Positions 17,604 through 20,512 of a DNA stretch of 35,094 nucleotides are shown piece after piece. The stretch is taken from the IMG/VR virus record IMGVR_UViG_3300030419_004439, positions 1 through 35,094 of that record; one strand, given 5' to 3'. The position numbers were made by a program, and so were the translations under genes. Every line of letters starts with the position of its first letter. The stretch's first letter is position 1. The notes beneath the pieces were generated by a model. That model worked only from the letters and a program-made list of their open reading frames with translations, ran no database searches and was not told the origin of the DNA. The DNA comes from a virus.

Positions 17604-18824
17604 ATGCAAGTAATGAATCGTGAGATCGTCGAAGATTCTCTCCAAATAAGGGAGAAAGTTATGGCGGCTAGACTCATAGCAGTAAATAGGTGGAGGTACT
17701 TTGCTCCGCAACTATTGTCTATGGTTCTGGTCGCTAAACCTGGCAGTTCTTTCGGAACGTGTGCGACGGATTGCAAGGGTCGTTTCTATTATGATCCTGC
17801 TTTCGTCCAAAATGTTTCCGTAGAAGAACTTGCAACCATCTGGTTGCATGAATGTCTACACTGCTGGCTCGACCATGCGAATAGGAGGGACGGTAGGGAT
17901 TCTTCCCGCTGGAATAAAGCCGTTGATCGTGAGATCAATGACGATCTAGTCGGAGAAGGTTTCCCTTTTCCTCTAAACTATCCACCTCTATTGCCCTTTG
18001 ACATCGGCCAAGAAAACGGACAACTCGCTGAGTTTTATTTTGAGTGCGAGGAAGAAGAAGATGGCGAAGACGAGGGTGAAGGCGGAGGTAAAGGTAAAGG
18101 CGGTGGCTCATCTATGGATGGCGAGCCCCGTGATTGGGAAGATGGGGATGAAACTCCATCAATACCGGAAGCCTTACAGGAATGTATCAGGCATGATGTA
18201 TCTAGTAAGATTGTCGAACATGCTAAAACCAGAGGGCGTGTGCCCGGTGGACTATTGCAAGAAGCTATGCGGCAGATTGAACCGCCTAAAGTTTCCTGGC
18301 AAAAAGAGTTAGCTGCTGCTGTTCGAGCGTGTGCTGCTGATGTAGCTGGGGCGGTGGACTTTACATACCGCCGTCCATCACGTAGGCAATCTATCTATGG
18401 CGACATAATCATGCCCGCTGTTCGTAGACCCGTGCCCGAGACTGTGATTGTCTTGGATACATCTGGTTCTATGTATGGTGGTGATTTAGATTCTGCCTTG
18501 AGAGAAACTCAGGGTGTTCTAAAGTCATTGGGCGGTCGCGGTATCCGCGTACTGTCCACTGATGCCCAGGTACATTCCCGCCAAAGAGTGAGTCACACAT
18601 CTAAGATTAAAGTTTTAGGTGGTGGCGGTACTGATATGAGAGTTGGGATAGCAGAAGCTAGAAAGCTGAAACCTTCCCCTGACTTATGTATCGTACTCAC
18701 TGATGGGTACACTCCCTGGCCTGACAATGCTCCGAAAGGGATGAAAGTCATTGTTGGTGTGACGGGTAAAAGTGGAAGGGACGGCCCGAGTTGGGCTCGA
18801 AACATTCGTATCGATGCCGAATGA
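17604..18824 (+). CDS. Putative metallopeptidase-VWA domain protein (DUF2201-like)
   Basis: This 406-residue protein has an N-terminal putative metallopeptidase domain with HECLH at 82-86 and a further His at 91, matching the HExxH zinc site. An acidic, Gly-rich linker lies near 150-190. The C-terminal von Willebrand A domain carries the MIDAS motif DTSGSM (285-290), a GGGGTD segment and TDG (366-368). This arrangement is that of DUF2201 proteins, which are normally found beside MoxR ATPases, as here. Together they probably form an ATP-driven remodelling or proteolytic complex. Both metal sites look intact. The substrate is unknown. Confidence 0.85.
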   Translation: MQVMNREIVEDSLQIREKVMAARLIAVNRWRYFAPQLLSMVLVAKPGSSFGTCATDCKGRFYYDPAFVQNVSVEELATIWLHECLHCWLDHANRRDGRDSSRWNKAVDREINDDLVGEGFPFPLNYPPLLPFDIGQENGQLAEFYFECEEEEDGEDEGEGGGKGKGGGSSMDGEPRDWEDGDETPSIPEALQECIRHDVSSKIVEHAKTRGRVPGGLLQEAMRQIEPPKVSWQKELAAAVRACAADVAGAVDFTYRRPSRRQSIYGDIIMPAVRRPVPETVIVLDTSGSMYGGDLDSALRETQGVLKSLGGRGIRVLSTDAQVHSRQRVSHTSKIKVLGGGGTDMRVGIAEARKLKPSPDLCIVLTDGYTPWPDNAPKGMKVIVGVTGKSGRDGPSWARNIRIDAE

Positions 18825-18828
18825 TGAA

Positions 18829-18891
18829 TGACGAAACGATTCCCTGGTTTCAGGGAGTCGTCTGCGGATAGCTACCGCACTGATGAGATCA
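18829..18891 (+). ncRNA. Type II hammerhead ribozyme candidate
   Basis: All core elements of a hammerhead are present in circularly permuted (open stem II) order. GAAA is at 18833-18836. Stem III is 11 pairs, 18836-18846 with 18851-18861, loop GTTT, closed by the required A-U and C-G. The cleavage nucleotide is C18862 after GU. Stem I is TGCGG 18863-18867 with CCGCA 18875-18879. CTGATGA is at 18880-18886. Stem II is the weak point: G18887-C18832 plus three pairs (TCA with TGA) around a bulged A. Predicted cleavage lies between 18862 and 18863, in the 3' UTR of the VWA gene. Confidence 0.75.
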
Positions 18892-18893
18892 AC

Positions 18894-18915
18894 GTTGGGT
18901 CGCTCCCAACTTTTT
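18894..18915 (+). terminator. Terminator after the hammerhead
   Basis: GTTGGG 18894-18899 pairs with CCCAAC 18905-18910 and runs into five T. It is only 17 bases before the next ATG, so the downstream gene depends on readthrough or on an overlapping promoter. Confidence 0.65.
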
Positions 18916-18932
18916 AATAGAGGTAAGAAACA

Positions 18933-19790
18933 ATGGAAGAAAAAGAAATCTCAATTGGTGGCGCTGTTACCATGTGGAAATCAGCACCGGCAATAAGAAG
19001 TCACGTACAAAAGAAACTACTCACCATTGGTGTTGGTGACTTTTGCCCTGAGCCTACAACCAGGCATGTCGCTCTCCGTAATGCTCTTAAAAGCCAATAC
19101 GGAAGTGAGTCTGTCAAGACGCTGCCTGGTTTCGCAAACTTTGCTGTGATTAACGCATCTGTTTCCAGCAAAAACTGGGAGGGCCAAGCAAAAGTCATCG
19201 TCAAATCTGAGTACGATGGGCTTACATTCCACAATCCGAATGATGAATACGATGATAACGGCGGTCTTGAACAAGTGACTGTCGATAACATCCAGCAGTT
19301 ATTCGAAGCTGAGTTGGGTTGCATCCCGGCCAATGATGTGTCGAAGATGCTAGTCAAGTTGGCTCACCATGTAGGCGGCATGGCCTGTGCTTCCGGTGCA
19401 GGTGGCGCTTACTGGATTCCAAAAGATTCTTTGAGTCTTTGGAAAGAGATTGCGGATACCGTTGAAGGTTCTTCACGGGGTAAGTCATCGTCTAAAGTAT
19501 TCATGTTCACTACAGCTATGGACGATGAAGCTGTCCGCGCTGTTGTCGGTTCTTTGGAGAACAATATCTTCAAAGAGTTGAAGGACATGGAAAACGAGAT
19601 TGCTTCTGGTAAGTTGAAGAAACGTGCCTTGGAATCTCGACAGCGTGCCCTTGGTGAGAAGCGAGAAACGATTCGAGAGTATGAAAGTATGCTCGGAGTT
19701 ACTCTCAAGAAACTTCACAAGGCAGTTGAGCAGACAAAGAAGAACAGTGTTCTTGCTGCTATGCTTTCTTTGGGAGGCGATGAGTCATAG
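18933..19790 (+). CDS. Unknown 285-residue protein with C-terminal coiled coil
   Basis: The ATG follows AGAGGTAAGAAACA. The N-terminal two thirds form a mixed alpha/beta region (FAVINASVSSKNWEGQAKVIVKS reads as strands). Residues about 205-270 are a long charged heptad-like helix. No catalytic motif is recognised. It follows the MoxR/VWA set and the hammerhead, and closes the cassette region. Phage proteins of this general layout occur near MoxR-like genes, but no function can be assigned. Confidence 0.65.
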   Translation: MEEKEISIGGAVTMWKSAPAIRSHVQKKLLTIGVGDFCPEPTTRHVALRNALKSQYGSESVKTLPGFANFAVINASVSSKNWEGQAKVIVKSEYDGLTFHNPNDEYDDNGGLEQVTVDNIQQLFEAELGCIPANDVSKMLVKLAHHVGGMACASGAGGAYWIPKDSLSLWKEIADTVEGSSRGKSSSKVFMFTTAMDDEAVRAVVGSLENNIFKELKDMENEIASGKLKKRALESRQRALGEKRETIREYESMLGVTLKKLHKAVEQTKKNSVLAAMLSLGGDES

Positions 19791-20092
19791 ATACTCCATT
19801 ACCCCTGAGCGCCTGAACGGGTGTTCAGGGGTTTTGGTGTGCTTATGAAGCATAAAAGACTAGTGGGGTAATAGACACCCTACCGATAATCACCCTATGT
19901 GAAACAACCAACCAACTAACATGGGTCATTAGACAGTAGACAGTGTTAGCGTCATTAGTTGAAGGAAGAATATAGTATATAGAGTTTGGTGCGACGTGGA
20001 AAACAGCCCACTAGTCACCCCTACTAGTCAGGTTGTGAACCACCCTTGACAGGTATGGTCTACTCAGTTACCCCATACGAAGGAGGTTCGAA
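19791..20092. repeat. 302-base gap with repeats, possible origin or control region
   Basis: No gene is seen. A terminator (CCCCTGAGCGCC 19802-19813 with a complementary strand ending at 19831, then TTTT) is followed by a TGTGCTT/AAGCATA hairpin at 19838-19854. Repeats include GACTAGTGGG 19858-19867 inverted at 20007-20016, ACTAGTCA at 20010 and 20023, tandem AGACAGT at 19931 and 19938, and GTCATTAG at 19925 and 19951. TTGACA at 20045 lacks a good -10. Its place just before the replication module fits an origin or operator region; this is inference. Confidence 0.45.
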
Positions 20093-20512
20093 ATGGGAAA
20101 GGGAGAATTGCAGAAGCTACTAGAGGCGGCACAAACCGCTTCTGGTTTTTCTAAAGAACAGATCCTAGAAGAAAGTCTAGCCCTGTTCTTAGCGAATCAC
20201 GGGAACGCTTCTGGTCCAGTCAATAGCAGGGCCAGCAAGTATGATACCCTGGATGCCGCTAAACTATTGTCCGCCGCTCATACGTTGGCGGCATCGGATG
20301 ACGGTATCCGTATCTGCTCATTCACTATGGATGAGTTGTTGGATACAGCATTTCCAGAAAAGGTTTTACTAGCCGAACATGACGTGAAGGTTTGGGCTGG
20401 TAGGCTCTTAGCTGCGGCAGGTTTTGAGCGTCGTCAGGTGCGGCGACGTGGTGGCTTGCGCCCCCTGGTATGGGAGCGTAGTTACATAGTAGAAAATGGC
20501 ACTAATACTTAA
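20093..20512 (+). CDS. Small putative winged-helix protein
   Basis: This 139-residue protein sits behind a strong AAGGAGGT ribosome binding site. The C-terminal part (DVKVWAGRLLAAAGFERRQV, then RRRGGLRPLVWER) resembles the small winged-helix domain seen at the end of phage primase-helicases (WxxLxxxGxxxxRxRxGGxRxxxW). Here it stands as a separate protein directly before the primase-helicase gene. DNA binding or replication initiation is possible. The N-terminal half is helical and unrecognised. Confidence 0.55.
   Translation: MGKGELQKLLEAAQTASGFSKEQILEESLALFLANHGNASGPVNSRASKYDTLDAAKLLSAAHTLAASDDGIRICSFTMDELLDTAFPEKVLLAEHDVKVWAGRLLAAAGFERRQVRRRGGLRPLVWERSYIVENGTNT

Follow-up and report, generated by a model that had tools for sequence, protein, structure and literature searches.

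A predicted type II hammerhead ribozyme conserved between a VWA-like and a DUF6744-like gene of related phages

Phage genomes have been known to contain hammerheads since 2010-2011, and both the ribozyme class and the kind of location described here are already known. Cleavage in vitro has been shown for type II hammerheads from comparable contexts and, in the case of an A. tumefaciens array, also upon expression in E. coli (PMC3088659). Perreault et al. proposed a role for such ribozymes in dividing long phage transcripts into mRNAs of single-gene or operon length (PMC3088659), and what hammerheads do in phage genomes is still regarded as an open question (PMC6155905).

The locus studied here lies in a phage fragment of 35,094 nt, referred to in its entirety as the window. 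The locus resembles the Rfam family RF02276 (Perreault et al. 2011, PMC3088659) in its topology, in all core nucleotides, in a G-C pair at 10.1-11.1, in the UG...CA start of stem I and in its intergenic location in a phage. It differs from this family in its score (24.8 bits versus a threshold of 37), in a stem-loop I of 17 nt versus the approximately 22 nt of the larger group of comparand hammerheads, in a bulge in stem II, in the terminator-like hairpin that follows it, and in having, by inspection, no clear pseudoknot between loop I and the 3' tail. Like HHphage of the haloviruses HF1/HF2 (PMC3088659), it precedes a phage gene start at a short distance (13 nt in HHphage) and belongs to an early gene block; HHphage, which was compared by description only, differs as a variant with an altered core from an archaeal virus. 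With short-stem-I viral hammerheads of IMG/VR (e.g., L017, L032, L068, L080 and L136) it shares the 17-nt stem-loop I, a stop codon just upstream and a Shine-Dalgarno sequence downstream, and its 3' tail is similar to the GATCAA of L068, L080 and L136. Stem II is continuous and covarying with four bp in these comparands, whereas it is bulged in the window, and the window hammerhead is solitary, whereas L017, L032 and L136 have several copies per contig.

Anatomy and gene context of the hammerhead

The window has terminase, portal and major-head-protein matches on its minus strand and, on its plus strand, genes for ATPase, VWA, DUF6744-like, primase-like, helicase, nuclease and DNA polymerase proteins, a block rich in replication genes. 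An earlier note, made from the sequence alone, had placed a type II hammerhead between the VWA gene and the next gene. Its elements and coordinates proved correct base for base by sequence, RF02276 alignment and pair listing, and the topology, cleavage-site position and gene context that it gave were all upheld. The features of this junction are listed below; R1 is a covariance model described in a later section.

17604..18824, plus strand: upstream gene, metallopeptidase-like DUF2201_N plus VWA-like DUF2201 protein, 406 aa (PF13203 8e-33, PF09967 3e-18, PHROG 1314)
18829..18832, plus strand: stem II, 3' strand UGAC; C18832 is position 11.1 (listed pairs, alignment to R1)
18833..18835, plus strand: core G12 A13 A14 (GAA) (sequence, RF02276 alignment)
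18836..18861, plus strand: stem III hairpin, 11 bp (18836-18846/18851-18861) with GUUU loop (pair listing, folding)
18862, plus strand: H17, a C; predicted cleavage C18862/U18863 (hammerhead consensus position)
18863..18879, plus strand: stem-loop I, 17 nt, 5 bp (18863-18867/18875-18879) and 7-nt loop AUAGCUA (pair listing)
18880..18886, plus strand: core C3 U4 G5 A6 U7 G8 A9 (CTGATGA) (sequence)
18887..18891, plus strand: stem II, 5' strand G-a-UCA with bulged A18888 (pair listing, folding)
18894..18915, plus strand: hairpin GTTGGG-TCGCT-CCCAAC (18894-18910, six bp, -7.7 kcal/mol) followed by T5 (sequence, folding)
18920..18924, plus strand: probable Shine-Dalgarno sequence GAGGT (sequence)
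18933..19790, plus strand: downstream gene, DUF6744-like protein, 285 aa, ATG at 18933 (PF20529 3.4e-8)

Since the VWA gene ends with a TGA at 18822-18824, the ribozyme, the hairpin and the Shine-Dalgarno sequence fill the 108-nt gap between the two genes. Two strong terminator-like hairpins were also observed on the plus strand downstream of the DUF6744-like gene, at 19801-19832 and 20119-20146.

Sequence inspection identified positions 18829-18891 of the plus strand as a type II hammerhead with all invariant core nucleotides, namely CUGAUGA, GAA, A15.1-U16.1 and an H17 that is not G. Stems I and III are loop-closed and stem II is open, which is the type II order (RF02276 alignment, pair listing). 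The pairs on which Perreault et al. based acceptance of a hammerhead, N10.1-N11.1, N1.1-N2.1 and A15.1-U16.1 (PMC3088659), are present as G18887-C18832, U18863-A18879 and A18836-U18861, respectively. Stem III, which contains one G-U among its 11 pairs, closes on the core with A15.1-U16.1 and C15.2-G16.2, and folding gave pair probabilities of 0.84-1.0 for stem III and of 0.77-1.0 for stems I and III together. Stem-loop I, which begins with U18863, the first nucleotide of the predicted downstream cleavage product, is equal in length to that of the short-stem-I comparand subclass. By inspection only, no obvious Watson-Crick pseudoknot was seen between loop I and the 3' tail, and the 17-nt subclass likewise has no evident one; such a pseudoknot or another tertiary contact is a majority feature of type II hammerheads and is not universal.

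Stem II is weak, as the earlier note had pointed out. It consists of four pairs (C18832-G18887, A18831-U18889, G18830-C18890 and U18829-A18891), with A18888 bulged after the first. In comparable viral type II hammerheads, stem II has 4 bp and covaries strongly. Forcing the hammerhead form cost 2.2 kcal/mol above the predicted minimum for the 74-nt ribozyme and 4.0 kcal/mol in a 111-nt context. The former value is inside the range of all comparands but worse than most of the 17-nt subclass, for which the cost was mostly 0-0.1 kcal/mol. An alternative pairing of GACG with CGUU, which would sequester G12, was counted as a competitor fold and not as structure. CTGATGAGATCAA, together with a perfect GATC/GATC stem II, is present in the IMG/VR loci L136, L080 and L068; the 5' strand of stem II is identical in the window, but TGAC instead of GATC lies opposite to it. 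Natural active hammerheads with a stem II of one or two bp are documented (PMC3088659).

The position of the hammerhead relative to the flanking genes is one that recurs in other viruses. Among the matches listed, the stop codon of an upstream ORF starts within 12 nt of position 11.1 in 84 of 108 viral hammerheads, compared with 5% of random control positions in the same contigs (loci L005-L124, e.g., L115 and L136). In many comparands the stop codon overlaps stem II. An ORF start preceded by a Shine-Dalgarno sequence was found within 200 nt downstream in 102 of the 124 comparands listed, mostly 15-45 nt away. The window fits this placement, with 10 nt from the stop codon to position 11.1 and 46 nt to the next start. 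A narrow literature search found no paper on the placement of hammerheads between stop codon and Shine-Dalgarno sequence. Translation termination and cleavage may interfere with each other at such sites.

The same gene junction in related phages

Four related contigs (L125, L126, L127 and L128) were found via the flanking proteins. The phage DNA collection held no relatives of the locus, and no relatives of the DUF6744-like protein were found among phage records or in bacterial and archaeal genomes.

L125 is a near-identical relative, with VWA and DUF6744 proteins 96% and 95% identical to those of the window, and the hammerhead is the same in both. No differences between the window and L125 were seen in the 108-nt intergenic region, whereas the flanking genes differed at 70 of 1221 and 32 of 858 positions (4-6%); by our arithmetic, zero changes in 108 nt would be expected about 0.4% of the time at the rate of the flanking genes.

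L127 and L128, which are the same in the region read, are more distant (VWA 69%, DUF6744 61% identical to those of the window) and have a diverged hammerhead in the orthologous VWA/DUF6744 intergenic region, with GAAA, U16.1 and CTGATGA. Stem III of L127 is paired at 11 of 12 positions with one mismatch, carries a long inserted hairpin, and shows four two-sided compensatory changes relative to the window (A-U to U-A, C-G to U-A, U-A to C-G and G-C to C-G). H17 is an A, and the stem I arms and CTGATGA are identical to those of the window. Stem II of L127 is weaker than that of the window, with U-U at 10.1/11.1 followed by U-A and C-G, and a U10.1-U11.1 mismatch is reported to be tolerated (PMC3088659); in addition, CUGAUG of L127 is able to pair with CAUCGG further downstream. 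Another hammerhead-like match in L127 (331-400, 15.4 bits) was rejected, as it lies within an ORF and has no core. As judged from these comparisons of sequence, the intergenic stretch encodes an evolutionarily conserved hammerhead RNA.

The statement of the earlier note that cleavage would occur before a terminator was borne out as regards the sequence, in which a putative terminator hairpin and U-run are present, but in L127 the short downstream hairpin (-4.9 kcal/mol) keeps GGGTCGCTCCC and the U-run is absent. Among the 124 comparands listed, a hairpin with a U-run is located downstream of the hammerhead only in the near-identical relative; hairpins without a U-run come after a few others.

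At the same junction of L126, which is about equally related to the window and to L127 (75% and 73%), no hammerhead and no CTGATGA were found, which indicates that the ribozyme is not indispensable. It is possible that the hammerhead was lost in L126 or that it moved between lineages, loss being the simpler explanation. A very stable long hairpin (L126:3912-3998, z -4.4) was observed directly 3' of the VWA stop codon in L126, and this hairpin may replace the 3'-end protection provided by the ribozyme. A reading of this region as two kissing hairpins (TGTCAG/CTGACA) was rejected, since it folds as one long hairpin.

Statistical significance and a subclass below the Rfam threshold

Scanning of the window with a descriptor (GAAA, stem III with 5 or more pairs, UH, stem I with 4 or more pairs, CTGATGA) returned exactly one site, the hammerhead. 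In 1500 dinucleotide shuffles of the whole 35 kb, any descriptor site occurred in five and a site with at least 8 pairs in stem III and at least 5 in stem I in one. The Rfam search of the window gave no match at the gathering threshold of RF02276 (37 bits); the score of 24.8 bits corresponded to E = 0.0032 for the 181 nt searched and E = 0.61 for the whole window. The Rfam gathering score is a database cut-off and not a biological feature, and the low score was not taken as a refutation because comparable viral hammerheads also fall short of it.

A pattern scan of IMG/VR yielded at least 124 distinct sequences that fit a type II hammerhead pattern, and almost all of these had good stems. Among the matches listed, stem-loop I had two main sizes, 22 nt in the larger group and 17 nt, the latter being the kind found in the window. 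RF02276 scores were mostly 39-47 bits in the scored contigs with the 22-nt kind and 28-34 bits in those listed with the 17-nt kind, and none of 15 loci with 17-nt stem-loop I hammerheads attained the gathering score.

A covariance model, R1, was built from 24 independent IMG/VR hammerheads, with the window and its near-identical relative excluded. Two-sided covariation was counted in 86 cells of R1, a number reached by 0 of 500 shuffles, and all three stems of the model were 99-100% paired. Viral type II hammerheads thus include a covarying subclass that the Rfam threshold does not capture. R1 gave a single match in the window, with 35.6 bits and an E value of 1.2e-8 over 35 kb. In the search with Rfam models, which the earlier note had proposed as a check, RF02276 stayed under its gathering score. 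The window itself fits the sequence pattern used to pick the comparands, and R1 is therefore not blind to core identity, although the pattern leaves free those pairs of stem III, stem II and inner stem I that vary in R1.

Several features of the comparands were observed in addition. Members of the 17-nt subclass (L017, L019, L032, L033, L043, L045, L068, L071, L080 and others) often have a GUNANGC loop, with a 4-bp stem II and frequently CCAA in the 3' tail. In some hammerheads (L032, L036, L057, L097 and L109) an extra U is located between A9 and stem II (CTGATGA-T-GACC, opposite GGTC), as a core-adjacent insertion. Four short-stem-I hammerheads lie within 1.7 kb on the minus strand of L136 (247-1934), a multi-hammerhead gene array in which the hammerheads are followed by a Shine-Dalgarno-like sequence and a start codon. 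Among further pattern matches, L134 is plausible as a hammerhead and has a GATC stem II, and L137 was rejected, as it has no GAAA and is inside a long repetitive ORF.

Proposed role and alternative explanations

Beyond the observed anatomy, significance, conservation with covariation and gene-relative position, we infer the cleavage activity, its timing and its purpose as follows. During transcription of the VWA-DUF6744 RNA, stems III and I would form first, after which the CUGAUGA core and the short stem II would close the junction and the RNA would cut itself co-transcriptionally between C18862 and U18863. Hammerhead chemistry leaves a 2',3'-cyclic phosphate on the upstream product. This product would be a VWA mRNA with complete reading frame and stop codon, whose 3' end is a protective 11-bp hairpin, and the downstream product would be a DUF6744 mRNA whose new 5' end carries a 5'-OH and the hairpin of stem I. 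Cleavage would probably serve to give each of the two mRNAs its own stability and expression. We consider it likely that the ribozyme splits the VWA-DUF6744 message by self-cleavage at C18862/U18863, which agrees with the role proposed by Perreault et al. (PMC3088659).

That hairpins and core words came together by chance, with no ribozyme present, is extremely improbable. The Rfam score below gathering would agree with such an origin, whereas the rarity of comparable sites in the shuffles, the E value of R1 and the compensatory changes at the orthologous site in L127 argue against it and confirm the view of the earlier note that chance was very unlikely. The element at 18829-18891 almost certainly descends from a genuine hammerhead. 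It is unlikely, though less so, that this hammerhead has decayed, i.e., that an active type II ancestor has become inactive or very slow, with a stem II that is not continuous and TGAC in place of the GATC of close comparands, and that the hairpins alone were kept for mRNA stability or termination. The perfect stem II of L136, L080 and L068, the forced-fold cost of 2.2 kcal/mol and the presence in L126 of a strong hairpin in place of a hammerhead are consistent with decay; yet all catalytic core nucleotides and the three core-adjacent pairs are intact, the 108 nt are unchanged relative to L125, the L127 orthologue retains the core despite large divergence, and natural hammerheads with a stem II of one or two bp are known to be active (PMC3088659). 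The hammerhead is probably active.

An explanation of the element as mainly a terminator or attenuator, in which transcription mostly ends after VWA at the hairpin and U-run of 18894-18915 and the ribozyme only trims the terminated 3' end and frees a two-hairpin RNA of about 50 nt, is very unlikely. It could account for the six-bp hairpin and T5 directly 3' of the ribozyme and for their preservation in L125. However, the U-run is missing and the hairpin weak in L127, such a terminator follows 1 of the 124 viral type II hammerheads listed, and the Shine-Dalgarno sequence of the next gene comes immediately after, with no promoter-like site found between the hairpin and that gene.

Splitting of the VWA-DUF6744 message by self-cleavage, the favored explanation, might also be coupled to translation, although we regard this as quite unlikely. 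A ribosome terminating at the VWA stop codon would cover the 3' strand of stem II and GAAA and block folding, while untranslated transcripts would cut themselves. A further step of pausing or termination would come, in this phage lineage, from the adjacent hairpin and U-run. If true, the coupling together with the hairpin and U-run would constitute a switch that needs no protein and selects between mRNAs of two genes and of one gene.

In conclusion, what is added to the known hammerheads of phage genomes is a subclass below the Rfam threshold, a regular placement at the upstream stop codon and just before the next Shine-Dalgarno sequence, and an orthologous hammerhead pair with compensatory changes at the same gene junction, together with a lineage in which the junction has no hammerhead. 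The existence of this lineage makes the effect of having or lacking the hammerhead comparable in a fixed gene context.
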